NCBI RefSeq assembly: GCF_051622035.1 | Contig: NC_135355.1 | Span: 27,017,486-27,081,485, forward strand | DNA: 64,000 nt | Direction: 5' to 3' | Origin: Arctopsyche grandis | Taxonomy: Eukaryota; Arthropoda; Insecta; Trichoptera; Hydropsychidae | In this document: positions 5,046 to 64,000 of the stretch, one piece after another | Layout of the letters: the number at the start of each line of letters is the position of its first letter | How positions within the stretch are numbered: the first letter of the stretch is position 1 | Made by a program: the position numbers and the translations under genes | The notes under the pieces: model-generated | Told to the model about the DNA's origin: nothing | The model's input: only the letters and a program-made list of their open reading frames with translations | The model's database searches: none

Positions 5046-5079
5046 ATAAGAAGGACACAAAACAACATTCAATAATTCA

Positions 5080-6586: not shown

Positions 6587-6590
<4 letters not shown>

Positions 6591-9783: not shown

Positions 9784-14240
<4,457 letters not shown>

Positions 14241-14434
14241 ATTTTGTTATTTCTTTTTTTTAAGTTTTTGTTTGTATAATATTGTTAGTCTTTTCTATTT
14301 TTGGTATGAATTTAATATTTTAAGCGAATTATATTTATAAAGAAAAATATTTCTATTCTTATTTTGAAATTTATGTGTTTATTGTGATATCTGCTAGGAA
14401 CACGCTGGAACGACTGACTTATGTACAAATTTAG

Positions 14435-14702
14435 GGTAAACGGACTATTAGTCATATGTGAACCAGTCACAGGACAACCGGTCGCTCTAGATCGGTCACA
14501 CGTGATCACCCGTCACATTAAAACTGGCCACGAGAAAACTGGTCACACCCAAAAATTGGTCGAATTTTTGGGTGTGACCAGTTTTTTCGTGACCAATTTT
14601 CGGGTGTGACCAGTTTTAGTGCGACGGGTGACCACGTGTGACCAATGTAGAGCGACCGGTTGTCCTGTGACCGGTTCACATTTGACTATTATTCACCGAA
14701 CC
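14435..14702. mobile_element. GGTCAC foldback MITE, copy 2
   Basis: Same family as 4790-5045, in the opposite orientation. It starts GGTAAACGGACTATTAGTCA and ends TTCACCGAACC. AAATTTAG flanks both sides, an 8-base target duplication. GGTCAC-containing arms face each other around 14555-14570. Confidence 0.78.
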
Positions 14703-17314: not shown

Positions 17315-19953
17315 TTATGTGTAATGTCTCATGTTGGCCACTCGGTCAGTATCCTTTGTTGAACAGTGAACATAGTATTCGTCGAATATTGGCCGAATGT
17401 AGGTATCGTTTCCGAGTGTTTTGTAAATAGGCTCTCCGTACCACGTTCCAACCTGGAAATAATTCGATTTCAATATCAGACAGGGCACTTAAATATGCAA
17501 AAGAAAGTAACATAGATGACAATATTTCACCTTCCAGCCTTCGACGTTCGCCATGAGTTTTTTTTCCTCCTCGCGATTGCGATACAACGTTTTCAGATGT
17601 TCCCTCTCTGTCTCCGCTAACAACATTGGATATATAGCCAACTTAGAGGATCTCATCTCGACCAGTTCTTTTTGGATTTGACGATTATTAAAATAATACA
17701 AACAACCACCGGTAAAGGTTATAGCACCGTATATGGCAAATAAGGTCCTACCTGCAAAATAATGTACAAAATGATAGTAATAACTATATAATATATTTTT
17801 GTTTGTGTGTATGTACATATATATTTTTATTTTTTTCATTAGGGATTCTTTTAATGCCACAAACTCCTGTAATGGTCCAAACTTAAATAAATAAATGTAG
17901 GGTTGAAATTGAACGAAAGGCTGATGTATGGGCTATGGCTGAGAAAGGGTATGCTACGACTGATTGTGAGAAGGGGATGAAAAGGGGCAGGGATGTAACG
18001 GTTAGTCACAGTTGGACCTGTGCTCCGCGCGGTTGGTCGCTAAGCCCCCGCACGTATCATCTTAATAAACAACATGACTGAAAACGCATGTGTTTGGTCT
18101 TCATCTCAACCGCCACATCCCAACTGTGGTCCTTAACAGCGTCATCTGTCAGGATTCTCTACCACATAAATATCTGTAATAAAGAGGCACGATCAAGGCA
18201 AATGAATTGGCAGAAACCGAAGTATATTCATCAACTTGAAAAAGCTGAATATGAATATAATATTAAAATTTCTCCATTTGATATGAAAATTTTAATTTAC
18301 AAATTTTACTGTATTTATTTCTATTGAATAGAAGGTCTAAACTTACTGATGTGTGTGTGTATATATGTATGTACATATGTATTTTCAGGATACAGAGAAA
18401 GTTCACGAATCAAATGTTTTGAGCAAGTTATGTTTGAAGAATTTGACAATATTTATTTATTTGTACCCATTTAAGTAAATCGTATAATATAAAAATTAGA
18501 AATAATAGAAAACAATATCAATAGAAAAAGTAGAGAAACACAATAATATGCAGCTTTATCACATGATATACTTATATGACAAAAAAAACATAGAACATAT
18601 AAATGAAAAATAATGATAATATTACTAAATATGTCGACGTCCGTCTGATCAGCTATACGGTTAAATAGCCCTAAGGCTATTATTAATAAAAACCAATTTA
18701 CTTTTTGGGAAGTAAATATCAACCCTTTTTCATTAGGGGTTATTATACATACATATACAATACAATATTGTGCATACGCATATGTAACTAGTTTTTCGTG
18801 AGCAAGATTTTAATTTTTTCTCATTCGTACTGGTCTTGTGCTTATGCACCTGCACGGTATGTTTAATGTGACCATTTATTTTTGTCCTCAAAATGGGACA
18901 TCTATCAATTTTTACGTAATAGTATGTGTATTCAAGAAAATGCGTATTTTTTCATAGTTTTTATTTATTAATAAAAAGAACAGGGCTGTTGATGAAGAAA
19001 AGAAAATAACAGGAATGAATAATATAAATATAAAAAATTTATCTTGTTTTATATTTTTCTGATGAACAAACTTTCTTAAGTATTACTGGGTTTGCTTTTA
19101 AATAAGAATGACATTCTTGGCAGGATTTCTTAATTTTCTTGATTCCGTGGTTTGAAGCATCAGTTAATATAGTAACACAAGTGCATTCGTAGGGACGATC
19201 TTTTAATTCACCTATTACTATTGGCGCTAAAATATTTACAACAATAGCTTCTGTTTTCGTGCGAGCACATCTAAATTTTTGTTCAAACCATGTTTGAATT
19301 AACTTAGAGGCACAATCGTTTGAGCGAAAACTATGGTTCTCTTGCACCGTATGAAAAGCCCAGGCGCGTTCAGTCGCAGCAACTTTGAAAGATCTGGAAG
19401 TTGGTGAATCCGTTTTCTTAAAAAAATTCGGAATTTCTATGTTTTTCTGATCTTAAGTGTTGCTCAATATCGCACTTTTTTAAAATTATTACCATGTGTT
19501 GCTCTCTTTTTGAAAACGTTCCGAAGCTGGGCTTGGGGACAATGGGACAGGCTACCTAAAAACGGGACGGTCCCGTTCAAAACGGGACGTATGGTCACTT
19601 TAGGTATGTTGCACACTATTCAATATTTTTCTTGCAATAGAATTGCAATTTTGTCAATTGTAAGAATACAATTTTTGATGGAATTAAAAAATAAGATAAA
19701 GATTTAGATATCCGGTGCATGCTGACGATATGATTAAGACGATCTAGTGCTAGTGGTAGTGCTAAACATGCGCGTTGACTGTTGAGGGAAAAGGAAATGG
19801 AAATGGAAATGTTACGTAAGTGTGCAGATGAGTAGAGAGGGATACATGCATACGCATACCCTTGAAGTAAGTCTTCGCCGGTTGTCTGATGTATGGAATG
19901 GGACGATAGCCTCCGGGCGGAGGCAGGTCCTGCTGCCTCACCAGCTCGCTCAT
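17315..19953 (-). CDS. NDUFA13: NADH dehydrogenase 1 alpha subcomplex subunit 13 (GRIM-19)
   Basis: Accessory subunit of mitochondrial complex I. Minus-strand exons: 19860-19953, 17531-17751 and 17315-17452, giving 150 residues with all phases closed. Exon 1 has the family's QQDLPPPGGYRPIPYIR near the N-terminus. Exon 2 has one membrane segment (about residues 34-50, TLFAIYGAITFTGGCLYYF), then the helix KLAIYPMLLAETEREHLKTL and NVEGWK. Exon 3 gives VGTWYGEPIYKTLG and ends MRHYT. Length fits the usual ~145-150. The donors are GTATGC and GTGAAA and the acceptors TTTTGCAG and TTTCCAG. Intron 1 (17752-19859) contains a hAT insertion (18864-19602). The gene faces HACD3 tail to tail, with transposons between. 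Confidence 0.95.
17900..18170 (+). repeat. Possible LTR-like or other dispersed fragment
   Basis: A locally GC-richer patch in NDUFA13 intron 1, with AATAAA (about 18064) and an adjoining CCACATCCCAACTGTGGTCC. It differs in composition from its surroundings and resembles a transposon end, perhaps a fossil LTR. Only one copy is in the window, so the family and borders are unknown. Confidence 0.2.
18864..19602 (-). mobile_element. hAT element with transposase remnant
   Basis: Termini TAATGTGACCAT and ATGGTCACTTTA (inverted TAAAGTGACCAT), flanked on both sides by GGTATGTT (18856-18863 and 19603-19610), an exact 8-base duplication. On the minus strand (about 19420-19039) an open piece reads VAATERAWAFHTVQEN.. 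then CARTKTEAIVVNIL and CTCVTILTDASNHG. This resembles the N-terminal catalytic part of hAT-family transposases found in insects (KCKRTKCTAIVKNV..). The rest of the transposase is missing, so this is an internally deleted 739-bp copy. It sits in NDUFA13 intron 1. Confidence 0.88.
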
Positions 19954-22477: not shown

Positions 22478-23529
22478 ATGTTGTGAAACATGCATTTAAA
22501 AATCTTTGCTTTAAATAAAACAAATATATATTTTTTAATACTGATGACAGAAATTTCATATTATACATACATATATACACAGTACTTCATTTGTAATGTA
22601 ACGCACTGGAACAGCGTTCCGGCACCTTGAGTCAAGATTTTAGATAGAATAATAATACCTATTATTTATATAATCGTTTCTTGAACAAATATAAAAAAAT
22701 GAACCAAAGAAAACCACAGATAAAGTAAAAAGACAGTCGGTAGAAATTTAATAAATTGATATTTTTTTGGCGATACAGTTTGATTGATTAAAATATATGG
22801 AAAAAAATTTCTTTCGCCTATTTGCTTATTTTACACTAGCTGTTTTACCCGACTTCGCTCAGGATTTGTAATATAAACAGCGGAAACATGGCGAATCATA
22901 GAAACTTTGTATTGTTTACGAAGTTCCCAACCAATTTACATATGTACATATATACAAAGTCTCTTTCGAAATTTATTTTACATAATACAAAATATGAACT
23001 TGAATGTTTAAATTTGAAAATTTTTCTAAAATAAATTCGATGTATAATTATAATAATAATAATATTGTTGTTTCTTTATAACCATTATTATTTATTATAA
23101 TAGTACGAAAAAGAAACACATATTCTATATGAAAATAATACAAAAATGAAATATTATAAAAATATCCTTATTTTGTTTAATGTCGAAATAATTAGATTAG
23201 TTACAAAGACACATAGACACAAACAGATTAAAAAAAAAAATCACTATTAACTAATATAAAAAAACAACGAAAATAATTTGTGTGGGTGGGGGGTGTGATA
23301 AAATAAGTAAATTTAGCGTTCCGAGACTTATTATTTTAGCACAACTTCCCTGGTTATGTGCAATTTGTGTAAAAGTCACATTTCTTTAGAATGGAAGTAA
23401 GTTTCCTGCCAAAAAAAAATGTTATACTGTTTTTTTATTACCCCCCCCCCTCCATTAAAAATTACTGGATCTGTCCCCGGTTCCAGCACCTTTTTTTTTT
23501 AAAGCACTGCACATTCATATTTATATATT
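22478..23529. other. Spacer with Helitron-like fragment
   Basis: AT-rich DNA between two convergent genes. It includes a short Helitron-like copy (22836-22982), a G-rich run (about 23283-23298) and a run of ten C (23442-23451). A possible further transposon begins near 22605 (CTGGAACAGCGTTCCGG), but its borders are unclear. Confidence 0.45.
22836..22982 (-). mobile_element. Short Helitron-like element, family 1, copy A
   Basis: Read on the minus strand it ends GAGCGAAGTCGGGTAAAACAG then CTAG followed by T. That is a GC hairpin some ten bases before a CTRR end, as in Helitron 3' termini. The other side has CGAAAGAGACTTTGTATA, matching the 5' region of the copies at 26531-26769 and 42588-44344. 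It has no coding capacity, and the 5' limit is approximate. Confidence 0.6.
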
Positions 23530-26500: not shown

Positions 26501-28021
26501 TGAATCAATTTGTGACGATTTTATTTAAGACTGGTGGTTTTACCCGGCTTCGCTCGGTATTTGTAATATAAACCGCTTAAACATGGCTAATCTAATAGTA
26601 CCTATAAACATTTTATTAAATTTATTTGAATAGTTTTATTTTATTTAAACATATTAGAATTTATTTATTTGTTTTTTATTAAATTTAACGTCACGGATTC
26701 TACCACCCAAACCTTACATAGTTACATACATTAAACCTTACGAAGTCTCTTTCGAAATTATATATTAGAATAAGCCTGACATTGCATTTGAATCTGGCAT
26801 TTTATAGTGTCAAGTTTTTACAACTACTATTATTTTTTTCATAATTCAGCTAATCTTACCAATACAAGGACATTATGATTAGGTTTTTACTTCCAATAGT
26901 AAAATCATTATTATAAACATTATTATAAATCAGGTGATTACATTACCCCATGAAAATAATTCTGCCATTTTCCGGAGTTTTTTTTGGCAAGACACACCAG
27001 CCACCCACTTCCATGGACTTGGACATTTCAGACAGAGTGACGTCACGATCAGTAAAATATTCAGGTAGTGTTGATCTGGCCGTATACATGTTGTCGATTT
27101 TTGATTTTGCCTTTTCAACATTGAAGTTGTTGCAAAGAAGATACCTTTTCAAGACGTTGTCTTCTGAAAGGGTTTACAGTGATGTAAGTTTTTGTCAGGA
27201 TTTTTAACTGCATATGTATCTTCAGTCCACGATCCCTTTATTACGGGTCTTCCTCACGGGACCGAAAGTGAAACGCCCAAAAAACGCAAATATCGGAAGG
27301 CAAAGATCGAAAATCGAAAGATCTTAAGTCGAAAGATAAAAAAAGGGTCTCTCCCCCCCTTCGTACATCCTCACTTAATTTGCGCGAGCAGGATACAACA
27401 GGAACAAGAGGAACAGGCTTTTCCTCCCGTATTCTGCACGCGCACATTGAACAAGGCTGTATGACAAACAGAGAGATAATTCCACCGCATGCCACTCATA
27501 TATATTATATATACATAGTACCGTTTACCATGCACCCTTTTTTTTGATCTTTCGACTTAAGATCGTTCGATTTTCGATATTTGCGTTTTCGGGCGTTTCA
27601 CTTTCGGTCCCGTGAGGGAGACTGCTTTATTAAATATATACCTATACATATGTAAATTCAGATCATTTACATATGTACTTATCAAAAAGTAAATAAAATC
27701 GGAAGAAGCTATGTGTGTACATATGATACCTATTTGTATTTACATACATATGCTTGTACTTTAAAATGACTGAATTAGAGTTTTTATGATATTAAAATAT
27801 ACATATATGTATATGTATTTATAGACCATTGGTTAAGAATACTTATTTCAATTTAACTAACCGATTTTGATTTCGCAGAGATGTGGCTGAACTTTAAGCC
27901 AACCCCTTATACGCTCCAAATTTTCTTTCAATATTTTATCAGTTGCCTCGAATTCCTTCAGCACAACTTCATATTCATCCTCGGAAGTGTCCAATAAAAG
28001 TTTTTGGTAGTCGACAGTCAT
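23530..28021 (-). CDS. CRAL-TRIO domain lipid-binding protein (alpha-tocopherol transfer protein-like)
   Basis: Cytosolic carrier of small hydrophobic ligands (tocopherols, retinoids or related lipids). Minus-strand exons: 27862-28021, 26947-27163, 24597-24786, 23812-24025, 23530-23684; phases close to 311 residues, the usual length for this insect family. The N-terminal CRAL-TRIO-N helices end RIRGWLKVQPHL; exon 2 has CNNFNVEKAKSKIDNMYTAR. The lipid pocket region includes IGDLRMKFE, MKRQAFVLQ, RIKGIHVLNCPTFLHNIITF and the LHVHKTLEEFYEHIPQE..LPSDLGG block that ends CRAL-TRIO domains. I start at the second Met of the open frame (MTVDYQK). The bound ligand cannot be told. Introns hold a hAT MITE (25895-26014), a Helitron-like copy (26531-26769) and a long-TIR MITE (27244-27624). 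Confidence 0.93.
25286..25800. mobile_element. Possible degraded hAT MITE of the GGAGTCGG kind
   Basis: Begins CAGGGCTGTGGTGTCAG followed by ACCAACTCCGACTC and ends in a region with GACTCCGATTTCGG. This is the layout of a common animal hAT MITE type with CAGGGCTGTGGAGTCGG ends. The far terminus is not intact and no duplication was found. Within CRAL-TRIO intron 2. Confidence 0.35.
25895..26014. mobile_element. 120-bp hAT MITE
   Basis: Perfect terminal inverted repeats of 23 bases starting CAGAGATAGGCGCATGAG. The flanks are GTGATTAC (25887-25894) and ATGATTAC (26015-26022), an 8-base duplication with one change. It is inserted into another dispersed repeat that recurs near 20340-20400. Confidence 0.85.
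26531..26769 (-). mobile_element. Short Helitron-like element, family 1, copy B
   Basis: On the minus strand it runs from TCTAATATATAATTTCGAAA to ACCGAGCGAAGCCGGGTAAA then ACCACCAG followed by T. Both ends match the 1.76-kb copy at 42588-44344, but the middle has no GC-rich arrays. The hairpin CCGAGCGAAGCCGG is intact; the terminal CTAG is changed to CCAG. No protein frame. Confidence 0.7.
27244..27624. mobile_element. Long-TIR hAT-type MITE, copy 2
   Basis: Inverted arms start CGGGTCTTCCTCACGGGACC and (inverted) CAGTCTCCCTCACGGGACC. CTTTATTA flanks both sides exactly (27236-27243 and 27625-27632), an 8-base duplication. It is the same family as 12550-12939, but the centre differs (a short unrelated stretch about 27440-27525). 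It lies in CRAL-TRIO intron 1. Confidence 0.85.
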
Positions 28022-31251: not shown

Positions 31252-31281
31252 CCCACGAGTAGCTTTATAGCTACTCGTGGG
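31252..31281. promoter_or_regulatory. 5'-terminal hairpin of the R1-like LINE
   Basis: CCCACGAGTAGC and GCTACTCGTGGG are perfect inverse arms of 12 bases around TTTATA. The hairpin starts within three bases of the element's 5' end and stops eight bases before the ORF1 ATG at 31289. Confidence 0.85.
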
Positions 31282-31288
31282 AATCACA

Positions 31289-32602
31289 ATGGAGAATAGT
31301 AAATTAAACGAAATAATAAATAGTATAGAAACTGAAGTGAATGAACTCATAACCTTCATCAGCAATCATGATAACGTCCACAAACCAATTAAAAAAGGTA
31401 TTTCAATAATGCTGTCGTTAACAAATAAACTGAGAGAAGCGGCAGAAAAGAACTATACCACAGAATGCCGTTGTCAAAACAATGTAATGGCTGCAGACAA
31501 CATTGTGAATGCTGGAAAGACTGCAGAACCGATTCCAAAAGAAAACACTGATCGGAATAAGAAAGGAGCCCGAAAGCTAAATCTTACCAAAAAAGAGATT
31601 ACATCAACAAGAAAGGTCAGAAAAAGTTTACAACACGCGGAAAACGCAATTATGGGATTAAAAAAGGCAATTGCCACCATTGAACCCGCAGTGCCCACTC
31701 ACAATGACCACACAGAAGACGACTGGAACCTGGTTCAAAGCAGACGTCACACACGACAAGGCAATGGTATTTGCAAGGACAAAGACAAGAAGAAGGAAAA
31801 AACTTTAAAACAAAGGAAGCCACGTTACAAGAGAGATGCTGTCCTCATCAGCAATCAAGAAAGTGGGAAAACATACGCAGAGATGGTGAAAATGCTCCGA
31901 GAGGTAAAACCGGACGAGATTGGATACGAATTAACAGCTATCCGCAAGACGCGCAAAGGCGACGCCATTATAGAGCTGGCAAGAGGCTCAAAGGATCCAG
32001 CGGACCTGGCAGGGGTAATAGCTGGAGCACTGGGAAAGCCAAACGCCGCGAGAGGACTTGTACCAATCGAGACAATAACAATCCTCGACATCCCGGAAGG
32101 CGAAGAAGAAAGTGACATCGTTACTGCATTATGCGAGAACAACAGCGCTTTGAAAAAAGAGGATATCACAGTTAGATACTTAAAAGCTGGCACGAGAGGC
32201 ACCCAAATAGCAATAGTTAGCCTTCCTGCCAAAATTGGAGTCTATTGGAGTCTAAAATTGGAACTACTACAGGCAGGGAAAGTAAAAATAGGATTCCTGA
32301 GGTGTAGGGTGCGCCGAAGAATCAGCGTCATGAGGTGTTATCGGTGTCAGGGCCTTGGCCACAGATCGACGACTTGCAGCAATCCACAACGAGAGACATG
32401 CTTCAGATGCGGGGAAGAGAACCATAAGATAGCTACCTGCCAGAACAAACTATGTTGTCTGACCTGCAAAAACAAAGAAGGAGCCGACACTGAACACCGC
32501 AATGGCACAAAGGAATGTCCCATATACAGGCAAGAAGCAAGAAAAATGCAAATAAACCTAAATGGCCCTAACATTCCTACAAATAAATCTCCACGGTTGT
32601 AG
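31289..32602 (+). CDS. R1-like LINE ORF1 (Gag-like RNA-binding protein)
   Basis: About 437 residues from the ATG at 31289; an upstream in-frame GTG is ignored. The first half is lysine-rich. The centre has the R1-type domain with ITILDIPEGEEESDIVTALC, and RRRISVMRCYRCQGLGHRS begins the knuckles. Three zinc knuckles follow: CYRCQGLGHRSTTC, CFRCGEENHKIATC and CLTCKNKEGADTEHRNGTKEC-like (positions 32459-32519). It packages element RNA. It overlaps the ORF2 start (32562) by 41 bases in another frame, as is common in this clade. Uninterrupted. Confidence 0.92.
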   Translation: MENSKLNEIINSIETEVNELITFISNHDNVHKPIKKGISIMLSLTNKLREAAEKNYTTECRCQNNVMAADNIVNAGKTAEPIPKENTDRNKKGARKLNLTKKEITSTRKVRKSLQHAENAIMGLKKAIATIEPAVPTHNDHTEDDWNLVQSRRHTRQGNGICKDKDKKKEKTLKQRKPRYKRDAVLISNQESGKTYAEMVKMLREVKPDEIGYELTAIRKTRKGDAIIELARGSKDPADLAGVIAGALGKPNAARGLVPIETITILDIPEGEEESDIVTALCENNSALKKEDITVRYLKAGTRGTQIAIVSLPAKIGVYWSLKLELLQAGKVKIGFLRCRVRRRISVMRCYRCQGLGHRSTTCSNPQRETCFRCGEENHKIATCQNKLCCLTCKNKEGADTEHRNGTKECPIYRQEARKMQINLNGPNIPTNKSPRL

Positions 32603-35547
32603 GGTTGCACAGGACCTTATGCATAAGGTGGCTGAAGAAAATGGGGCTGACTTGGCACTTATTTCTGAGCAGTATCGCGGGAATACCCCACCTCGCTGGT
32701 TTTCTGATGCAGATTCTAGAGCGGCCATATGTGCCTTCTCCCCTCTGCTGCATATTACTGATGTAGATAGTGGTAGCAAAAGCGGCTGGACTTGGGTTGA
32801 GATGGACAAGGTGAGGATATATTCTTGCTATTTTTCCCCGAATTCAATATACACCGACTTCGTAGAAGGTCTCACCCGACTGGGAGATAGCATCAGCGCT
32901 TCTCCTCTACCTACGATTGTCGCTGGTGACTTTAATGCAAAAGCTCCTGAATGGGGGTCTCCACACACGGATAGAAGAGGTATATTGCTTTCAGAGATGG
33001 CTTCACAGCTGCGACTACACGCTATAAACACCGGATCTAGCACCTTCGTGCGCGGGAACAGTGCTTCGGTTATAGATGTTACATTTGTACACGAATCGCT
33101 ACTGGGAAGAGTTGGACATTGGGAAGTTCTTGACACCCATTCTTACAGCGATCATCTATACATCAAATTTACAATAAAAAATTGCCTAAAGAAGACAAAA
33201 AATAAAGCACTCGAAGGGTGGGCAGTCAGGAAATTGGACGCACCAGCACTCGAAGGGGCCATAGCGCTCAAGAGAGAGACTGTTTTCAATGGTATATCTG
33301 GGAGAGGGGCTGAAGAAGTTACTCAATCGCTCAACGACCTTTTCCGCTTTGCTTGCAACGCCTCAATGCCCAAGCTTGGCAGCGGCGTGCGTCGACCCCC
33401 CAGTGTACTGGTGGAATGACGGGATAGCAGAACTCCGACGGAACTGCACAGCTTGTCATCGCAGGATGCAACGACATCCCGACTGCGACGAGCGACGTCA
33501 AGCGTATAAAGAGGCTAGAAAGGCTTTGCGCAACGCAATCAAGAGAAGCAAATCGCAGTGCTGGGAAGAGATGTGTAACTCTGTCAACGCCGATCCATGG
33601 GGTACACCTTATAAGATTGTGAGGAGGAAACTTCGGCGATCGATAGATGATCCTTACCTCAACAAGCAATCAAATCTGGAGATGATAGTTGATGGACTCT
33701 TCTCGACCCGGGAAAATTTTGACGTCATCGTCAGAAGAAATATGGACAATGATATAAGCGAACAAATACCCATCTTTACTGATGAGGAACTAAACATGGC
33801 TGCCAGACGACTACAGACTAACAAAGCCCCAGGACCGGACTGCGTCCCAAACGCAATCATCAGACGGGTCGCTGACTCAGATCCTGCACTACTACTTGCA
33901 GTCTACAACTCTTGTCTGACAGAAGGGACGTTTCCTTCTTCTTGGAAGAGACAAAGATTGGTACTTATTCCGAAGGGAAACAAGGTCCAGAATAGCCCAT
34001 CTGCATACAGGCCGCTTTGCATGCTGGACGGACTCGGCAAGCTTTTAGAGAGACTGATTCTCCAGCGGCTACAGAAGTACCTTGAGGATCCTACGAAGGG
34101 ACTTTCGCCACACCAGTTTGGCTTCCGCCCGGGGCGCTCGACAATTGAGGCAATACAACAGGTCATTGACACTGTTAAGAAAGCATGGGAGGGAAGTGTC
34201 AAAGCAAGCGGGCATGTCGTGATGATTGCACTTGATATTAAGAATGCATTCAACTCAGCAAAATGGAACCTGATCCTTGAAGCGCTCCAAAGAATTGAGA
34301 CACCAGCATACTTGGAGCGGATAATCAAAAGTTATCTTTTGGACAGACAGCTGGAATACAACTGTAATGGCATTCAACGACAGCGAACGATCACGGCAGG
34401 CGTTCCACAGGGCTCGGTACTTGGACCTGCACTGTGGAATGTCATGTATGATGGTCTTATACGTGTTCCATTTCGCCCAGAGGCGAAGATAATCGCCTTC
34501 GCCGATGATGTAGCATTGCTAGTTGCGGCGAAATCTGTAGAACTCTTGCGAGCTATTTGTGAAGACTCGATCGGAAAGATAAGGAGATGGCTGTCGGACG
34601 CTGGATTGGAATTAGCAGTTCAAAAGACTGAGGCCGTGTTCTTCACCAGACGAAGGAAGTTAATACCGCCGCAACTCTTCATCGACGGGCATGAGGTGAA
34701 ATATAATAGATCGATCCGATACCTGGGAGTATGGATCGATGACAAACTTCGCTTCACTGTACATACAGAAAAGGTGGCAGCAAAAGCAGCAGGAGTTGCC
34801 GAAGACTTGGCCAGGTTGATGCCCAACATAGGAGGACCCAAAACAAACAGAAGAAAACTTTATAATGAAGTAGTCCACTCGGTTCTGTTGTACGGCGCTC
34901 CGATATGGGCGGATGCAATGATAACGGAAAAGGCGAGACTCAACATAGCAAGAGTTCAGCGAAGAAGTGCGCTAAGAGTTGCTGCTGCATATCGCACGGT
35001 ATCCGAAGCAGCCATCCTCGCAATAACAGCCATACCACCCATCGATCTGCTCGCAGAAGAGCGGAAAGCGGTCTACAGAGGGGAGCAAAAAAATGACTCA
35101 AAAGAAAGAACTATGTCTTTGTGGCAGACTCGATGGGATGCGTCAACTAAGGGTCGGTGGACGCATCGACTCATCAGAGACCTGAGGGTTTGGAGCCGGA
35201 GAAAACATGGTGAACTGTGCTTTCACCTAACTCAGATTTTAACAGGACATGGCTGCTTCGGAAGCTATCTGCACAAGATAGGAAAAAGAGCAACACCAGG
35301 ATGTCATCACTGCAGTGCAGAAAACGACGATGCTGAACACACTGCATTCGATTGTCCAGCATGGAACGCACATAGAACCAATCTAAAAAATGAACTCGGT
35401 GTTAACTCATTAGCGACGACTAACATGATTCCTGCTATGCTTGAGAGTGCAGAGGCGTGGACAGCATGCACTACGTTTGCAGTATGCATCATGCGGGAGA
35501 AAGAAGAGGCAGAACGCGATCGAGAGAAAAAAAGTCGGACTTTGTAA
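32562..35547 (+). CDS. R1-like LINE ORF2 (endonuclease and reverse transcriptase), one frameshift
   Basis: The first frame (32562-33419) is the apurinic-type endonuclease: LQINLHGCRVAQDL, LALISEQYRG, TIVAGDFNAKAPEWGS, SVIDVTFV and HSYSDHLYI. The second frame (open 33289-35547) continues in the next phase with NKAPGPDCVPN, YRPLCMLDGLGKLLERL, ALDIKNAFNSAKW, GVPQGSVLGPALWN, the RT active site AFADDVALL and a CCHC knuckle CHHCSAENDDAEHTAFDC near the end. The two overlap around 33289-33419, so one small indel separates endonuclease from RT; both halves are otherwise open. The protein would nick the target and prime reverse transcription there. Confidence 0.92.
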
Positions 35548-36929: not shown

Positions 36930-39407
36930 TTAAATTAAACCGTAAGATGCGAAGTCTTTAGCAATTCCATTTATGCGTTCCCTGCAACTCTTGGATAGCA
37001 AGTCATCCAACGTATCCAAATTATATTCTCCTGGGATAACATCCAAATCCGGCACGTCATCTTTCTCAGATAGGATTAAAGGAAGCAGCATCATCGAAGA
37101 GATCAGTCCGAAGGGCATCGTCGATTTGATCTGATCCTCGTAAACTTCACGCGGATAGCATTCGCTTAACTCGCAACCCATCATAGTAAGGCTTTTGTTC
37201 AACATCTCGTAGTATAAATCTAATGATTTCGTGTAATAATCAGATCTTATTTGTTCGTCCGTGCTCATGAACATCATGTATGCTATGTCTGTGATCGGTG
37301 AAGCAAAGCGAGTGACCTGCCAGTCGATGAATCTCAAATCCATAACTTTGTCGTCCTGAAAAGTAACAAATGACATGGTTATTACGATGGCTAATATTTA
37401 GTAATGTGTCGATAAAATTAGTGGAAAAAAAATCGAAAACTGCCACTTCCGGTCAACGGATGTTCGAATACACACACAAACACACGATCAGTAATCGATT
37501 CCGAGTTCGAATCAGTCAAAATCTCAAGTTCGAATTTTCGCATCATCACAAAACTTCATCTATTGTTACTTTTTTGTGAAAGTGTTATATCTTCTTTTTC
37601 TAATCTATGTACATATGACAGCGTGTGCACACGTTGAAGCTCTAAAATGTAATGCTAAAATCAACATACTAATGAAAAAATCATTAGTCCATTTGATGTT
37701 TTCTTTTAAGGTTATCTCTTATTATTTATGACTGAGACTTTCAATATCTTTATTGATTGTAGACTGTACAACCATATGATCTACAAATTTTGTCTGAGGT
37801 AATTTTATGATAAAACTTACCGTTTTGCTGAAAATCGCGAAAAACCCATATTTTTGACCTTTGACCTCAGGAATTTTTTTTCCAGGTATCAGAACGATGA
37901 GGAGTTTTGACATATCATTTATAATTATGTTTTGAACAATTTTACTCACTTTCAGTTTGTTGTGAATTTATGTATCCTTGAATGTCTAAATTGACCGGAC
38001 TATATGTACGAGTAACTGTATTAATGATCAATTAATATACAAATCTTATATGTATGTTGGGTACAGTGATCGAGACTTTTTTGGGTTGAGAAAATATGTC
38101 CCTTTTACACTATAGAGATAAAATCCCCCTTACGAGCTAAAAACACTGCATTAGAGACCAAAGATAAGCGGATGCAAGGAGATACATAAAGTGCACGCCA
38201 TGAATCTCCATGCGCGCTTTATATCTCCATGTGTCCTAATTTAGACCAGGGGCATCATTTCACCTTTTCCCATGGGGAGGGGGCAACATTTTTGACCAGT
38301 AAGGAATGTCTTTCTAGGGGGAGGGGGTGTATTATATTATAAAATAATCTCCTGAAAATCTTTCAATGCAAGACAAACAACAAAACAAAATATATTTGGT
38401 AGTTTTCAGGAAAAAATCCACGTGTTTATTTTGTTGGTTTAGTATTTTAATTCAAACTTCATAATAATACAATCCCTTTCAAATCTAGGGCGGGGCGGTT
38501 GCCCACCCCAGCCTCTCCCCCACATGATGCCCTGATTTAGACACAGCTTAAGGAAGTAGTGTGTATGAACAATTATTTTCAGGGTTATTCATTTATGTAA
38601 GAAATTGGCTTTACTTTCTTCATATTTAAACATAAAGTTGTTGATCCAACTGTCACCGTGACATATGACTTTATAAGGCGCCGTCCTTTCGGGATTTATA
38701 AATTTTTTGTACATTTGAACAGTATTGTTACACGCGTCTTCAACTCTTTTCCGGATTTCAGAATCCTCGATCACCCTTGTACACTTATTTTTCCCCATTT
38801 CTATCATTGCATCGCCAGCTTCGAAAATGAATGGCTTTGAAATCTCCTGGGTGAGTTTTTCAAACAACTCCGGATTGGTTTTCTTTATGACAAAGGAAGT
38901 GGCATGTAAATGGGCCATAGTCTTTATCACAAGCTCCAAGTGTTGTTTATCAAAAGGTGTCTGTCGGATGTACATCTTGTACCCTTCCACGGCCAAATCA
39001 CTGATGAAAATGCACTTCTTCTCTGCTTCATCGCTACTTCCATAGTACTTTGCGTGATAAAACCTATCTTTCTTGGGTATCTCAAAATCGTCCTGAAGTG
39101 CGTCTAGTGCCGGAAGTACTTCTGAATAGGTAAAGATTTCCCTTTCATAGAGGGAGCCTATAGGAAAAGTCTCACTCGATGCTTTAAATACGGGGGAACA
39201 TTTCACAATCACACTGATAGATTTTCCGTACTTATCGCTTGCTTTCACACGGTAAAGGTTTCCCATATAGTTATCACCTTTATCAGTAGCTTCCGAAATG
39301 TCCAATTTGGCATCTTCGATATTTTCACTTGTAGATATTCTATTGATGATTTCAATTATATCGTCTTGCAGGACTATGGGAGTTTCTTGGCGTTCATCCA
39401 TGTTCAA
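36930..39407 (-). CDS. Ecdysteroid kinase-like (EcKL / CHK-type) protein kinase-fold enzyme
   Basis: Insect small-molecule kinase family, known for ecdysteroid 22-kinase and linked to detoxification; the substrate here is unknown. Exon 1 (about 38615-39407) starts MNMDERQETP; exon 2 (36930-37355) ends GLI. Exon 1 has the N-lobe with ISVIVKCSPVF, KKCIFISDLAVEGYKM, then HLHATSFVIKK, and ends at the catalytic-loop motif ICHGDSWINNFMFKY (His250-Asp252). Exon 2 gives LRFIDWQVTRFASPITDIAY with the metal-binding Asp. Together about 405 residues, the family norm. Oddity: the only sensible donor (GAAA|GTAAAG) leaves phase 1 whereas the acceptor (TTTTCAG|GACGAC) needs phase 0. So there is an unseen mini-exon, an unusual junction, an assembly error or a one-base lesion. 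The intron holds a hAT MITE and another repeat fragment. Confidence 0.87.
37440..37580 (+). repeat. Dispersed repeat fragment in the EcKL intron
   Basis: Contains CGATTCCGAGTTCGAATCAG and GAATTTTCGCATCATCACAA, nearly identical to 5762-5840. It starts in the intron close to exon 2 (CACTTCCGGTCAACG, about 37443). Only the end part of the family is present. Confidence 0.6.
38247..38534. mobile_element. hAT MITE in the EcKL intron
   Basis: Ends CAGGGGCATCATTTCACC and (inverted) CAGGGCATCATGTGGGGG, with G-rich subterminal runs. ATTTAGAC flanks both sides exactly (38239-38246 and 38535-38542). It is 288 bp with no frame. The exact duplication suggests a fairly recent insertion. Confidence 0.88.
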
Positions 39408-39837
39408 TTCAGTGAACTAATTTAAATTTTAAAAAATAAAACAGTTAAAAAAATAGCTTTATAAATGTACATCTCATCATATGAATGGAATAATTTTACA
39501 TTAAAAAAACCTCATATGGGATGCTTATTCACGTTGCTAAGGTACGAAAACAATATGAAACTTTGTCGCGCGTATCTTAAACACAAGTATTAACGCGTCT
39601 CTAGTCCATTGTTGATGTTGTTTAAACATCGTTTCTCACGTCTACTATTTACTAACTAGTGTTGGACCCGTTGATTTCAACGGGTGGTTTCGAAAAGGAA
39701 TTGAAACTCGAATAAAAATAAAGTTAAAGATATTGAATCGACTGGTTTCGGAAAGAAATTGATGCACGAATTACGAAGTGATTACGAATTACGAACTACG
39801 TTTTGTGCATCGCCGACCTCCTGACGCCTTTGCCCCC

Positions 39838-40377
39838 GATGCCTCCGTCGCTCCGGGGCCTTCGGCCCCAGCGCCGCCGACGCCTCCGGCGCCCCCGACG
39901 CCTTCGGCACCCCGGGGGCTTCGCCCCCAGCGCCGCCGACGCCTCCGGCGCGCCCAGCACCCCCGATGCCTTCGGCACCCCGGGGGCTTCGCCCCCAGCG
40001 CCGCCGACGCCTCCGGCGCCCCCGACGCCTTCGGCACCCCGGGGGCTTCGCCCCCAGCGCCGCCGACGCCTCCGGCGCGCCCAGCACCCCCGATGCCTTC
40101 GGCACCCCGGGGGCTTCGCCCCCAGCGCCGCCGACGCCTCCGGCGCCCCCAGCGTCCCCGATGCCTTCGGCACCCCGGGGGCTTCGCCCCCAGCGCCGCC
40201 GACGCCTCCGGCGCCCCCAGCCCCCCCGATGCCTTCGGCACCCCGGGGGCTTCGCCCCCCGCGTCCCCGATGCCTTCGGCATCCCGTCGCCCCCAGCCCC
40301 CCCCGATGCCTTCGGCACCCCGGGGGCTTCGCCCCCAGCGTCTTCCCAACGCCTTCGGCGCCGCCAGCGCCCCCGGC
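39838..40377. repeat. GC-rich hairpin minisatellite I
   Basis: About nine copies of units of roughly 59 to 65 bases. Each contains CGCCGCCGACGCCTCCGGCG, GATGCCTTCGGCACC and GGGGGCTTCGCCCCC. The last two are perfect small hairpins, one with a TTCG loop closed by C-G. GC content is extreme compared with the flanks. Long ORFs cross it in five frames with Pro/Ala/Arg or Gly/Ala/Arg repeats; I regard them as composition artefacts. Confidence 0.9.
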
Positions 40378-40818
40378 AATGAAAAAAATGAAAAAACTGA
40401 AAAAATGAAAAAAATGAAAAAACTGAAAAAATGAAAAATATGAAAAAACTGAAAAAATGAAAAAAATGAAAAAACTGAAAAAATGAAAAAAATGAAAAAA
40501 CTGAAAAAATGAAAAAAATGAAAAAACTGAAAAAATGAAAAAAATGAAAAAAATGAAAAAATGAAAAAAATGAAAAAAATGAAAAAACTGAAAAAATGAA
40601 AAAAATGAAAAAACTGAAAAAATGAAAAAAATGAAAAAAATGAAAAAACTGAAAAAATTAAAAAAATGAAAAAACTGAAAAAATGAAAAAAATGAAAAAA
40701 ATGAAAAAACTGAAAAACTGAAAAAAATGAAAAAACTGAAAAAATGAAAAAAATGAAAAAACTGAAAAAATGAAAAAAATGAAAAATATGAAAAAAATGA
40801 AAAATATGAAAAAAAAAA
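40378..40818. repeat. A-rich tandem array (GAAAAAATGAAAAAA type)
   Basis: About 440 bases of TGAAAAAAA and CTGAAAAAA words with no other base composition, abutting minisatellite I. The Phe-rich frame on the minus strand is an artefact. Confidence 0.93.
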
Positions 40819-41154
40819 ATTTTGTTCCCCATACTGGTTGATGGTTGATCGTCCGTCACATACAAATATACAAATATATTTAGCGACAGTCCGTTTTTAT
40901 ATATAGTATAATCATTTACTAATAATCATATTGGATATTTTGAAATAATTTTATATTTTGATCCAATTTGGAAAAAAAACACATTTTTTTTAATATAAAT
41001 CGATGAAAATAAATAATTGTGTATCAAAATTAACAAAATCTCACTACGAAGAAATACATTATTTGAATAGATAGAGATAGATATATTTTTTAAAAATTGA
41101 TCAAATTTAAAATTATTTCAAAATAATATAATATTTTGGTCTGGAGTCTGAATC

Positions 41155-42095: not shown

Positions 42096-42894
42096 TATAT
42101 ACATATGTATATGATAAGAGTATTCACGTTTTTACAATAATGAATTATAAATCAAACTAAGCCGTGTCAGTGTAAATAAGAATTTAAGAAATTCACTTTT
42201 CAATTCTCAAAAAAAATTCATTTAATAATAAAATTGAATGTTTTTGAGAATTGAAAATTTGAATAATTTTTTTTTTTAATATTTTTTTATTCAATCAATC
42301 AATCTATATACACTCGTCATTACAGATCGATCCAATGCGACGAGTGTATTACATAGATCAAGAAACACACCAAATTATATATGTAAATAATTATTAATTC
42401 GAAATTATACATGACATCTATGATCAAACATAGCAAAGTGCATTGCAGGTATCCGGACATATACCCACGAACACGTACCCCCCGGACACATACCCCCGGC
42501 CAAAGACCTCCTGGACATTAAACCCCCGTGCAAATAACCCCTGCCATGGATAAAAATTGTTTAAAAATAGTAATAAATGACTAATAATCTAATCTATAAT
42601 TTGGAAAGAGACTTTGTATGTATGTAAATATCTTCTAATCTATAATTTGGAAAGAGACTTTGTATGTATGTAAATATCTTCTAATCTATAATTTGGAAAG
42701 AGACTTTGTATGTATGTAAATATCCTTGGTCGTCTTCGTCGTCTTCGTCGTCGTCTTCGTCGTCGTCCGTAGATCGGTGACGTCATCGAACACGTGATTC
42801 GATTTTTTTTTTTTTCGATCCATGGGCGCCGATTTGTTTTTTTCGATTCAATGGATTCACCCCCGCGGGGGCGCAAAGCGAGTAGTTTCATGGG

Positions 42895-43500
42895 GCCCCG
42901 CCAGGGGCGCCACAAGGGGCGCAGCCCCGAAGGGGGCCCGGGGGGCGCAGCCCCGTGGGGCCCCAGCCTCATGGGGCGCAGCCCCATGGGGCTCAAAAGG
43001 GGGCGCCACAAGGGGCGCAGCCCCGTGGGGCCCCGAAGGGGGCCCGGGAGGCCCAGCCTCATGGGGCGCAGCCCCATGGGGCTCAAAAGGGGGCGCCACA
43101 AGGGGCACAGCCCCGTGGGGCCCCAGCCTCATGGGGCGCAGCCCCATGGGGCTCAAAAGGGGGCGCCAACAGGGGCACAGCCCCGTGGGGCCCCGAAGGG
43201 GGCCCGGGGGGCCGAGCCTCATGGGGCGCAGCCCCATGGGGCTCAAAAGGGGGCGCCACAAGGGGCGCAGCCCCGTGGGGCCCCGAAGGGGGCCCGGGGG
43301 GCCCAGCCTCATGGGGCGCAGCCCCATGAGGCTCAAAAGGGGGCGCCACAAGGGGCGCAGCCCCGTGGGGCCCCGAAGGGGGCCCGGGGGGCCCAGCCTC
43401 ATGGGGCGCAGCCCCATGGGGCTCAAAAGGGGGCGCCACAAGGGGCGCAGCCCCGTGGGGCCCCGAAGGGGGCCCGGGGGGCCCAGCCTCATGGGGCGCA
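42895..43500. repeat. GC-rich minisatellite II, 90-base period
   Basis: About 6 to 7 units, each with GGGGCGCAGCCCCATGGGGC, AAAAGGGGGCGCCACAAG and GGGGCCCCGAAGGGGGCCC (identical phases at 43261, 43351 and 43441). Because 90 is divisible by three, several frames on both strands stay open, giving GAPRGPEGG-type repeats. These are unlikely to be genes. Confidence 0.92.
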
Positions 43501-44127
43501 AGCCCTAATAGGCATTAACTAAGGGGGGCGAAGCCCTAGACGGCAATTAATCATGGGGGCGCGGAGGGGCGAAGCCCTAAAAGGCAACTGATCATGGGGG
43601 CGAAGCCTTAGACGGCATTTAATCATGGGGGCGCGGAGGGGCGAAGCCCTAAAAGGCATTAACTAAGGGGGGCGAAGCCCTAAACGGCAATTAATCTTGG
43701 GGGCGCGGGGGGCGAAGCCCTAAAAGGCATTAACTAGGGGGGGCGAAGCCCTAGACGGCATTTAATCATGGGGGTGCGGAGGGGCGAAGCCCTAAAAGGC
43801 ATTAACTAAGGGGGGCGAAGCCCGAAACGGCAATTAATCTTGGGGGCGCGGGGGGCGAAGCCCTAAAAGGCATTAACTAGGGGGGGCGAAGCCCTAGACG
43901 GCATTTAATCATGGGGGTGCGGAGGGGCGAAGCCCTAAAAGGCATTAACTAAGGGGGGCGAAGCCCTAGACGGCTTTGAATCATGGGGGCGCGGAGGGGC
44001 GAAGCCCTAAAAGGCAACTGATCATGGGGGCGAAGCCCTAAACGGCAATTGCTCATGGGGCGTGGAGGGGCGAAGCCCTAGAAGGCAAAGGCTCAGGGGG
44101 GTGCCGAGGGCGAAGCCCTAGAAGGCA
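43501..44127. repeat. GC-rich minisatellite III, about 70-75-base period
   Basis: Units of GGGGCGAAGCCCTAAAAGGC, ATTAACTAAGG and GGGGGCGCGGAGG, with each unit holding two GGGCGAAGCCC hairpins. The hairpin word is the reverse complement of GGGCTTCGCCC in minisatellite I and overlaps the GCGAAGCCGGG word at the element's own 3' end. Confidence 0.9.
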
Positions 44128-44273
44128 AAAAAAAAAAAAGATTTTTTTTTTTGATTTTTTTAAATTTTTTTTTTGATTTTTTTTTTATTTTTTTTTTTAT
44201 TTTTTTTTTTGATTTTTTTTTAAATTTTTTTTAAATTTTTTTTTTAATTTTTATTTTTATTTTTTTTTTTTTA
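44128..44273. repeat. T-rich tract
   Basis: About 146 bases of T runs broken by GA, AAA or A (TTTTTTTTGATTTTTTTT type), lying between minisatellite III and the Helitron-like 3' end. Confidence 0.9.
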
Positions 44274-44344
44274 ATTAAATTAGCTTAGTCATGTTTAAGC
44301 GGTTTATATTATAAACACTGAGCGAAGCCGGGTAATACAGCTAG

Positions 44345-45019
44345 TTAATAATAAAATAAAGTAACAAATAAGAATAAATTGAGTGTGGTAGAGCATATTG
44401 AATTTCAATTTATAAACAGTATTTAATTTCAAGTTATTGTTGTAAATAGAATAAATATAAATTTAAAAGACTAAAAAGTCACCAGTTAGGGTTTGCGTTT
44501 TGTGGTATTGAAAGTAAATTTTAATAGAAGTATATATTATTGTTATACTATTATTATTATATTTTAAATATTTTTGGACTATCCATGATGGAATTTGTAA
44601 AATCGAGAAAAGGAAAAGAAATAGAGATTAAAATACAATTGATTTTGGAGTTTTGTATATTTTAAATTTCTATTATTAATTGCTGATTTTTTATTATTCA
44701 TTATTGATTTCTTATAAATAATCTGATATATGTATTATTAATATCTGTATTTCTGATTAGCAAAAATTAACACTGATACTGACTTTTTATTAAAGATTTA
44801 GTTTTTAAAAAATATTAGCTGAACTCATGCAACGATAACGCATGCAATCCCCGTTCCCGTTATTACAGTAATGATAGTTTGTCGCAAAAACGCAGGCAGT
44901 GAACATATTTGAAATTATTTAATTGTTTGTTTATTTTACCCTAACAACGCAGATGGATACGGGAAAACATTTGAAATTATTGACAAATAGACAAACAGAC
45001 AAACTTGATTTATATATAC

Positions 45020-54015: not shown

Positions 54016-60521
<6,506 letters not shown>

Positions 60522-63109
60522 CTGCAAATTAAAAAAAAACTAAATTGTAACATGCAAAACAGTGAGAATTACGCAATATCAAAAACGAATGTGTTTTTAT
60601 GTTTGCAAAACGTTTACGTTTTGACCTTCACACTCTGCATACACTTTACTATCTTTCAGACAAAATAATCGCTCTGCAGTAATTATACTAAACTTGTTTC
60701 TGATGATTTTGTGGCAAGAAGAATAGGACCAGAGGAATAGTACTAGTAAACACACATAGCGATTCTTTTTAGTCATCTTATCAAATTGGTAGGGATTAGA
60801 TAAAACTTAAATGTTGATTGAAGTGAATACGAATTGCGAATCTAATATTGAAAATTTTGGCAATAGAACCGTATTTTCAGCTACATTCTTTTTACTAAAT
60901 ATTTATTTTACTGTGTTTAAAACGCGCACAAATATTTAATTGGTTTAGATGTAATTAAGCGATTTGAAAAATGGGTCAATTTAAATTGTTTATGATCTAA
61001 TTTATCCCGGTACATATGTATGTATGTAGTTGCAGAGAACATCAAACACTATACCATATTTTTTTCATTATCTGTAGCTCAGTTTAAGCTATACTAATTC
61101 TCTCTAAATCTAAGATGTGAGACCTAGAGCTAGGGAGAGGGGCTTTTTAATTTTTTAGAAAAATTATTTTTACTAGCTTTTTTGGTCTCTTGTTTTGAAC
61201 ACTGATGAAATTGTCATTTACAATTGCCCCGATCCCTAGCCTAAGGGCGAAATCACACAGGGAAGAACGGCACGTCGTGTGCTTGGCTCCTCGATGTGGG
61301 GGTTCTCCTACATTTCTTCAAATATGGGATACACCATTATCGATCACTGTCAAGCAAGGATAAATACAAGGATTTTACCGAAAACACTCCAGGGGGGGGG
61401 GGGTTTTGGGACGATGTGTGCTGGGCGTGCCATGAATATGTGCTGGACATGCCACATTTTTTCGCATGTTTAAAAGTATCTAAAAAACCACGTGCCACGT
61501 TCCTCGCTGTGTGTTCTTGTCCTAAGTCTGATGAGAACTCCCATTTTCTTCACTGTGAAGTTTTTTGATATTCTCACAATAGAATGGCCAGTAATAAGAG
61601 TGCGATTTCTTGTAAATAAGACGAGTTTCTTAAAACTAGATTTTACTCATAGAATATGTTCCTTCTAAGTATGTATGTACTTTAAATGTTTTCCTTTGAA
61701 TTTACTTTCTAATTAGTCAATACGTATTTAAATGAGGATTATGTTCAAAGATAGGTCCTTTCAATTCCCCGATTTTCCTACTCTCAACTTTAAACATGGT
61801 TATTGAAAAAATATTGAAAGGCCACCTTGAGTATGAAACGATTGAAATAGTCTTGGATCTACTGCTATTTTATTTGATTTTTAATAATAATTGTAAGATT
61901 AAAATAGCTCGAGCCACGTATTTATCTCGGATAAAATCACTTCTTTCTCATTGTTCTACCGTCGGCCTTGTCCGACAAATTAAAACGTTCATGTAGACGT
62001 GCTTTGTGCAGAAGTGCCAGGTGACATTTAGGTATACCATTGTAGTCAGTCAGGCTATTGTCGTTTGTGAAGTTGGAGAACAAACAAATGCCGCAACGCA
62101 AATATAGTCCGAGAGAGATTCTAAAGATTGTTCGATGTTCTGCTTTCGGCGGTGATGTCTTTACATTCACAACAACATATTGCGGTACCAGATGACACCA
62201 TTGATGACATCAGACATCCATGGCCATCGTCGATACACATTGAGAGTTAACGGAAAATTTTCAACATATAAATAAATAAATATCTCAACGTGTATTATTT
62301 AAATTTGTCACATTTACGTAAAAAGGCAAAACAGCTAAGTTCAGTAACCGTCGACATTGTGCAACCAATTAAGAGAACCATTATTTGTACAATTGCCGTA
62401 GAAACAGTAATTCACTGACGGCACACCCATACGCGATAATTGACACACGATTGTGTAATACTCATATGAAATGAGCGAACTTGGTACTCAGAAATGATCG
62501 TTATAAAGCTGGGAGTAAACCAAATATGAGTATCTATAAATACTGACACAAGAAATTGCCCCAAGACTTTTCACTTTAAAACCAAAGTGATGTTGACGAT
62601 CGATAAGGTGGCACGTTCTAAAACAATAGTGTTCCAATAATAGAAGTACACGTGTCGAAGTGGTAGGTTTAGCACTAGATGTGTTTATTTTCAATGGTAT
62701 TATAGGTGCATTTACTTCAGAAACCAGCTTAGCCAATCAATTAGCGAGGTGAACGGAGTGCAAACTAGAATGCTAGTTATTTAACGAGCAGGAGTCATAA
62801 GTTATGAAGATCCAAGAAATGGATGGAAAATGTTGCTCTTGTACTGGAACATGTGGTATTTTTTTTTCATTGCTACTTCAGTTACATATCTAGGATTGTT
62901 TACAAAGTGCATGTACATACATATATGTTACAGACCAAGTGTACACCTCGTTCGTTTGTGAACATACTAGTTTATTCATACACGAACCAATATGGTCAGT
63001 TTACATAGGTGTACACAAAAAAAAAAACAATTTACAAACGAGCTAGATTGCTCATGCACAAACTACATATTAGGCAATTCTCAATCGTTCTATGTACATA
63101 CATATATAC
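60522..63109. other. Right-hand region, no assigned gene
   Basis: Should contain the missing first exon and promoter of the ANKRD29-like gene. A frame at 60776-60600 on the minus strand opens MTKKNRYVCLLVLFLW but cannot be joined with confidence. A G run (61393-61404) and an eroded possible zinc-finger relic (minus strand, about 61950-62110) are also present. Otherwise AT-rich DNA with no recognised exon. Confidence 0.35.
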
Positions 63110-63426
63110 GGTGACACGACAACTCGTTCACAGATTTTCCGTAAACCGAGGATGCGCTCCAGGCATTACGTATACGGCCATCTCTTTCTCACCCCGTTTG
63201 TTCACCAAGATCTCGTTTACTATGCCATTACGTATGCAGCCATCTCTTTCACAAACCGTCTGTTCACCGATAACAGACGGTCTGTGAAAGAGATGGCTGC
63301 ATACGTAATGGCATATTAAACGAGATCTTGGTGAACAGACGGGGTGAGAAAGAGATGGCCGTATACGTAACGCCTGGAGCGCATCCTCGGTTTACGGAAA
63401 ATCTGTGAACGAGTTGTCAGGTAACC
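63110..63426. mobile_element. 317-bp near-perfect palindrome (foldback MITE)
   Basis: Two arms of about 155 bases are almost exact inverse copies meeting near 63268 (ACAAACCGTCTGTT and AACAGACGGTCTGT, with a loop of six bases). Outer ends are GGTGACACGACAACTCG and (inverted) GGTTACCTGACAACTCG. ACATATATAC lies on both sides, a 9-10-base duplication within TA-rich sequence. One copy in the window and no conserved frame. Confidence 0.85.
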
Positions 63427-64000
63427 ACATATATACATATGTATACCCTGGGTTGCAATATTTTAAAAATTAGTGGAAACGGGAATTATCTATAGTAACG
63501 CTGTAATGTGGTTTCCATGGGATTTCTCTTTAAAATACTTGACGTTTTGACAGCTAAAAGTTTCATGCAACATATGATGAATTTATCTGAATAGTCAAAA
63601 TAACGTATACATACATACATATGTATGTATATTGCAATTCAGAAAAAAAATGAATCTAAGATATTTTTGAGAAAATGACTGACATGCTCGTAAGAATAAT
63701 TCAGACAAAAATAATAAATCCAAGTAAAAATTGAATTTCTACAGTATGTGAACTCCCATTTTGTGTTTCCCAATCACAATTTATTATCCCGAAAGTAATC
63801 TTGCCACACATCATTGAGAAAAAAGATGAAATGAGTTGTCGCTCCATCTCCATTCTTTCCACACCCAAAACTATGCAAGACCGAGTACCATACGTATAAA
63901 TTATTTGTACTTTGTTTTTTGTATTGTAATGATTTGTCTGGTCGCAATGGCGTATTGGATCGCTCTGAATTGCGACTGCGGAATAATTTGTATAAACAAA
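63427..64000. other. Right edge, nothing recognised
   Basis: AT-rich DNA with ATACATACATATGTATGTAT-type simple sequence near 63607-63631. No exon or transposon end that I can support. Confidence 0.5.

Follow-up and report, generated by a model that had tools for sequence, protein, structure and literature searches.

Strand-specific mini-hairpin arrays in Helitron-like elements of Arctopsyche grandis

Described rolling-circle elements and the element in the window

Rolling-circle elements with central tandem repeats are already known (PMC7492417, PMC4344730). According to the relevant passages of PMC4344730, the lepidopteran Hel-2/MITE01 elements resemble the family presented here (family A) in their 5'-TC, 3'-CTAG, A/T flanks and internal tandem repeats of variable length, and in a 3' hairpin for which family A has a candidate, whereas the Hel-2 repeat is a (CTGT)n microsatellite and family A carries long GC-rich hairpin minisatellites. 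Helentrons of the Cg_HINE/DINE-1 type are likewise non-autonomous rolling-circle elements with one or two central tandem arrays of variable unit number genome-wide, but prefer oligo-T sites, in contrast to the TC...CTAG ends and A/T flanks of family A, and strand-specific GNA hairpins go unmentioned in the passages concerned (PMC7492417). Two origins are discussed there for internal tandem repeats, i.e. capture of a satellite or growth from the element's own sequence.

The bat Helitron Helraiser and Helibat share with family A the TC...CTAG ends and insertion between A and T, and have a 3' hairpin comparable to the candidate one of family A; further likenesses are the movement of the plus strand, the only one transposed in Helraiser and the presumed one in family A, and exact head-to-tail junctions, which for Helraiser occur in circles with precisely joined ends. 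The Helraiser 3' hairpin acts as a terminator, and a change of its loop behaved like deletion of the hairpin, while a stem swap left about 90% activity; internal hairpin arrays, however, are not mentioned in the passages on these elements (PMC4778049, PMC5876387). By analogy only, GC-rich short hairpins tied to single-strand transposases are described for the REP/BIME sequences and RAYT transposases, which are bacterial and lie outside any Helitron (PMC2817692).

The window, i.e. the whole stretch of 64,000 nucleotides analysed here (C1:27017486-27081485), contains at 42588-44344 on the plus strand a real, complete non-autonomous Helitron-like unit of 1,757 bp, A/TC...CTAG/T, where the slash marks the element boundary. 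Its ends and flanks were read directly (A at 42587, start TCTAATC, end AGCTAG at 44344, then T) and confirm the start, end and span given in a preliminary description; the same ends recur in 27 further copies. The extra DNA listed in that description is also all present, i.e. three 46-bp repeats of the 5' terminus (42588-42725), two successive GC-rich arrays and a T-rich tract (75% T, preceded by a run of A; 44129-44275). The inner joins of the 46-bp repeats read GTAAATA/TCT-TCTAATC, an A/TC step with a TCT prefix, and the third repeat differs in its last base. A TCG/TTC microsatellite follows at 42729-42767. In array 1 (42936-43505) the hairpins are C(GCA)G and C(GAA)G and the units 90 bp (and 70 bp) long; array 2 (43493-44129) is built of 72-bp units (31 + 41) with two GGGC(GAA)GCCC hairpins per unit. 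The conserved 3' end (44279-44344) comprises the GAGCGAAGCCGGG candidate terminal hairpin and CTAG; in three copies the hairpin has a conserved GAGCGAAGYCGGG with a C(GAA)G loop on a short, bulged stem, and the fold z values were -0.45, 0.39 and -0.39 for three family A ends. All these features lie on the plus strand.

Helentrons and HINEs are not known to carry TC/CTRR ends. They insert into oligo-T (PMC7492417), and with its TC...CTAG ends and A/T rather than oligo-T flanks, family A was not assigned to them. At the 5' flank, A/TC was found at 26 of 30 loci (21 directly, five with a TCT-type prefix) and CTAG/TC at the other four, and at the 3' flank a t followed GCTAG in 28/28 elements, the search pattern having required GCTAG but not the t. 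As protein, the reading frame of the array gave 0 matches among 960 candidates at E <= 0.001, and an Rfam search gave none at the gathering threshold. The patterns of the 3' end, 5' end, arrays and family B had no match in viral contigs, and one match in a prokaryote genome (L001, a Bacteroidales contig) was judged to be due to chance. An explanation of the arrays by G-quadruplexes was rejected, with no motif on either strand of the window's family A element, one on the top strand of the family B element and three outside.

This second family, B, is represented in the window at 39656-40908 on the minus strand (A/TACTATATAT...CTAG/T), with a T-rich array of TTTTTTCA type (40378-40822) followed by a GC array (39832-40377) whose hairpins, of the types C(GAA)G and C(GGA)G, lie on the strand of the element itself. 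Its ends, A/TACTATATAT...ACCCGTTGAAATCAACGGGTCCAACACTAG/T, are unlike those of family A: the 5' terminus is TA instead of the Helitron TC, reading A/TACTATATATAAAAACGG in all five copies (the window, L052-L055), and the 3' terminus is CTAG/t, again in 5/5. The 3' end of family B folded with z -2.75, and its 3' 145 bases were perfect in 40 of the best 40 of 1,487 candidates.

As to possible partners, Helitron_like_N has 16 matches in the genome. In four stretches taken from three of these places, two of the stretches with flanks of only 1.5 kb, the sole match to the ends of either family was a weak one of 49 bp (E 0.001). An 836-codon open frame at 3275-5785 (minus) of L061 overlaps a Helitron_like_N match on C13 and is a candidate autonomous Helitron gene; no element ends were found around it. 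At C3:20710636-20738225 (L060, L062), four Helitron_like_N matches are spaced exactly 9,032 bases apart, which would fit a tandem series of RepHel-bearing units.

The remainder of the window holds a non-LTR retrotransposon with zinc knuckle, endonuclease and reverse transcriptase frames (31271-35547), which we take to be R1-like and a piece of which (32562-33419) has an 87% match, covering 93% of the query, to an Arctopsyche grandis protein, and a second retroelement with a long reverse transcriptase frame (6588-8549). There are also related, partly inverted repeats of AAAACTGGTCACACCC type (4771-5057, 14431-14695, 59451-59727), an inverted repeat with 174-bp arms, 92% complementary and 7 bp apart (63091-63445), and frames matching PTPLA, GRIM-19 and ecdysteroid-kinase-like families (13785-14240, 17489-17932, 36930-37397, 38589-39416).

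Copies, short relatives and array length

The genome (475,669,232 bases, 189 contigs) was searched with the 5' 173 bases of the element, and the best 40 of 963 first-look candidates were scored, giving 42 matches; this choice of the best-matching places biases the sample towards the youngest copies. Twenty of these 40 places were examined as long stretches and make up, together with the window, 21 loci, none of whose stretches contains an N. Elements were counted on the basis of an exact 33-base 5' match plus a 3' pattern match on the queried strand, a count that omits at least the third member of L044 (variant 5' end) and an inverted copy in L048, as well as the end of the incomplete upstream member in L046.

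This count gave 28 complete family A elements at the 21 loci, with lengths of 935-3,222 bp (27 of them 1,471-3,222 bp, one 935 bp). The two ends, first described from the window, thus stand together at all 20 of the other loci, a part of the family that was picked by 5'-end match. C(GNA)G hairpins lie between both ends in 28/28 elements, 9-68 per element (3-27 in array 1 and 4-40 in array 2), and core length takes 27 distinct values. Instead of arrays lying mostly outside such ends, all clusters of at least three hairpins in the window and the 20 loci were inside family A or B elements, these host elements being complete, truncated where the stretch ends or, once, without a 3' end. For the 3' 75 bases, the best 40 of 998 candidates were all perfect copies, all listed at 0.65-17.1 Mb of C1; by extrapolation, perfect 3' ends would number roughly a thousand genome-wide if the density of C1 held.

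When the blocks outside the arrays, microsatellite and T tract were compared (46 + 144 + 75 = 265 bases), 13 of the 28 elements were identical, and all 13 had different pairs of array hairpin counts. Therefore, unit number changes faster than single bases, in line with the expansion within the element proposed in the preliminary description. Coded as letters for unit types, the array ends were mostly conserved and the interiors altered by blocks. The array-1 string CDEABA is common to six copies that differ in array 2, and in unit types L050 is L040 with one internal block missing. L036 and L047 have an array-2 string in common and a different array 1, a mosaic that suggests exchange between copies. 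Among the swollen copies, L033 departs furthest from the majority, with 20 differences in 302; units of the common type are few in its arrays, and it carries a 15-bp repeat of its own around a GGCGCNGCC core.

Two array-free relatives of family A lie on the minus strand of the window, i.e. one of 239 bp at 26531-26769 and a shorter, older one at 22836-22983, which ends in CTAG/T and has a decayed 5' end, its 5' limit being set by offset from the 5' core. The similarity of the window element to these two was 90% over 60 bp (E 6e-19) and 86% over 56 bp (E 5e-14) at the 3' end, and 91% over 34 and 32 bp (E 3e-8, 4e-7) at the 5' core, so that the end similarities among the three copies, as judged by these alignments, are beyond chance within the window. 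The 239-bp copy had been described as having the same clean ends; the relationship holds, but its ends read T/TCTAAT...CCAG/T. In the two short copies (22835-22899 and 26530-26596) the terminal hairpin may be flanked on both sides by an outer inverted repeat (GCTGTTT/AAACAGC or GGTTT/AAACC), which is imperfect in the long copy (44280-44345).

A search with the 239-bp copy returned, as the best 40 of 2,334 candidates, the window copy and 39 others, the latter 85-91% identical over unbroken matches of some 200-250 bases that leave no room for arrays. Since there are at least 39 such array-free relatives of about 240 bp, and their divergence exceeds that among the 13 identical swollen copies, the arrays most likely postdate the small unit, which supports the order originally proposed; they would have been added in one branch.

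Mini-hairpins on one strand

Hairpins were scored if they had a three-base loop and a stem of four or more pairs, with three G-C pairs among the inner four. By this measure, C(GNA)G mini-hairpins make up most of the arrays, and every one of them lies on the strand running from 5'-TC to CTAG-3': 34 were counted in the family A element of the window, against 11 other triloops and no C(TNC)G, and the 28 family A elements together have 1,108 C(GNA)G, no mirrored C(TNC)G and 306 others (1,414 GC-rich triloop stems). In the family B element of the window all 21 of 21 are C(GNA)G on its own strand, and five family B elements have 13-21 each, with none mirrored. Outside the two window elements, only one of 21 GC-rich triloops belongs to either class. 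For single array units, the observed hairpin count was reached by none of 5,000 dinucleotide shuffles in each of four tests. By comparison with Helraiser, the hairpin-bearing strand would correspond to the transposed one; the agreement in strand comes from two or three independent arrays and is by itself weak statistics.

Variation within the arrays was unevenly distributed. Variable cells were fewer in hairpins than in spacers in array 2 (1/192 vs 41/384, permutation 0.0001) and in family B (11/315 vs 24/161, permutation 0.0034), while array 1 showed the reverse (38/288 vs 11/252), confounded by a shortened unit; its four clean units gave 1/196 in hairpins vs 5/164 in spacers. When anchored on spacer words, 256/266 hairpins were intact, and when anchored on hairpins, 153/299 spacers. 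Array 1 (z -12.2) and the family B array (z -5.9) were better folded than their shuffles, and for array 2 as a whole (z +2.47) 20 of 20 shuffles folded at least as well; the energy model may not reward GNA loops. Descent of the arrays from the 3' terminal hairpin is not claimed, as only eight bases are in common with array 2 (76/400 shuffles, not significant), and the lowest of 12 comparisons between ends and arrays was 22/400 shuffles. Words of 15 bases are shared by array 2 and family B on the strand of the element, with no such words on the opposite strand.

Extraordinary stability is described for hairpins that combine a GNA or GNNA loop with two or more G-C pairs, GCGAAGC melting at 78 C (PMC4686876). 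In the open-licence literature, as judged from its listings, we found no work that joins Helitrons with GNA mini-hairpins. Both 'Helitron' and 'GCGAAGC', the latter three times, occur in the text of PMC2817692, unconnected in the passages concerned. What is new here is the strand-specific C(GNA)G mini-hairpin arrays in two families with different ends.

Joined copies and the origin of array variation

Exact CTAG/TC joins between family A copies were found in six of the 20 loci (L037, L038, L043, L044, L046, L049), and 11 of the 40 listed perfect 3' ends lie within 3.3 kb of another, on the same strand in each case. Neighbours belong to different subfamilies in L043 and L049 and are alike in L037, L038 and L044. 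Because the members of L043 and L049 differ in subfamily, single-event rolling-circle multimers were rejected as the sole, general cause of head-to-tail copies; some tandems may stem from repeated insertion at a resident A/TC, others from copying past the end. An ordering with the upstream members as the younger ones was dropped, since the loci were picked by best match and the pattern is biased. Short array-free forms also stand head to tail (C5:32374329-32374983, with three adjoining matches; C3:3284229-3284677; C3:29161289-29161745), and therefore tandem joining does not need arrays. In L009, the 5' end of a family B element directly adjoins a family A copy, and the head-to-tail junction of two family B copies reads CTAG/TTATATATATAAAAACGG.

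Partial 5' repeats of 35, 40 and 59 bp were found in L032, L033 and L038, respectively. In these and in the window (4/4), the repeat breaks at an A/T step of the normal 5' end and then continues with TC, i.e. with a plain 5' end in L032 and, in the other three, first with a prefix (TCT, TCTTC and a longer one in L038). For the 46-bp repeats, partial 5' ends joined at A/TC fit better than slippage; a copy would have inserted within the 5' end of a resident one, and a later transposition would have run from the outer 5' end to the inner 3' end. A single case, L015, has an upstream copy with 28 array-1 hairpins and without array 2, T tract and 3' end, which breaks off right at the 3' margin of a C(GAA)G loop and passes directly into the next TC, as though an array hairpin had halted synthesis.

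Taken together, family A is probably a recently active, high-copy non-autonomous Helitron whose hairpin arrays, lying on the presumed transferred strand, were altered during rolling-circle copying, and expansion of the arrays at this step is plausible. The ancestor of the family would be a short unit of about 240 bp, such as the array-free ones still present today. The arrays would change at the moment when the top strand is displaced and copied in rolling-circle transposition: stable hairpins could form in the single strand, synthesis would stall there, and the growing end could re-pair with another unit, so that blocks are added or dropped. Head-to-tail copies and partial 5' repeats would result from joining at A/T steps at or inside a resident 5' end, in an order of events that we infer. 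A bolder form of this reading, in which rolling-circle transposition itself breeds arrays, blocks change at nearly every jump, the unit string is a running record of transpositions and two families with different ends have converged, is tentative and seems doubtful to us.

The most serious competitor, to which we give close to an even chance, is ordinary minisatellite instability in the chromosome, i.e. slippage or unequal exchange after insertion, with transposition uninvolved. Mostly conserved array ends with interiors that change by blocks are what ordinary minisatellites show, and the L036/L047 mosaic suggests exchange between copies; however, 13 copies without a change in 265 bases all differ, so that a high rate would be needed at every site, and the confinement of GNA hairpins to one strand also speaks against it. 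It is rather unlikely that the short unit instead took up existing GC-rich minisatellites, once per family, the hairpin type being that of the genome's GC-rich repeats generally: the words shared by array 2 and family B would agree with this, as would the capture of filler discussed for insect Helitrons in passages of PMC7492417, but the 64 kb and 20 loci contain no free-standing cluster of at least three such hairpins, and GC-rich triloops outside the two window elements almost never belong to these classes (1/21).

The lower variability of hairpins than spacers in array 2 and family B, and the L015 copy that stops at a loop edge and runs into the next 5' end, could also mean that the hairpins are kept as an aid to the element, e.g. 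as a nuclease shield for the single strand or as spare or decoy terminators, and the tolerance of the Helraiser terminator hairpin to a stem swap but not to a loop change (PMC4778049, passages on the hairpin) would fit. Yet array-free short copies have multiplied too, the match to the terminal hairpin is eight bases only and the loops vary in the 15-bp array of L033, and we regard such a function as improbable. That array lengths are an artefact of assembly is very improbable indeed; long GC-rich arrays are hard to assemble and the lengths are known from the assembly alone, but the strings of unit types differ in ordered ways, some are common to several loci, and the 21 stretches are free of N.

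Since otherwise identical copies differ in array length at many sites, the question of how such arrays originate becomes directly testable, and family A offers a testing ground in the comparison of insertions, individuals and reads. The exact head-to-tail copies suggest either that insertion favours the 5' end of a resident copy or that copying can continue beyond the end. The strand-specific mini-hairpins would provide a physical reason for growth in a single-stranded intermediate, and copies that are otherwise identical but differ in hairpin number may serve as a natural test of how Helitrons grow during copying.
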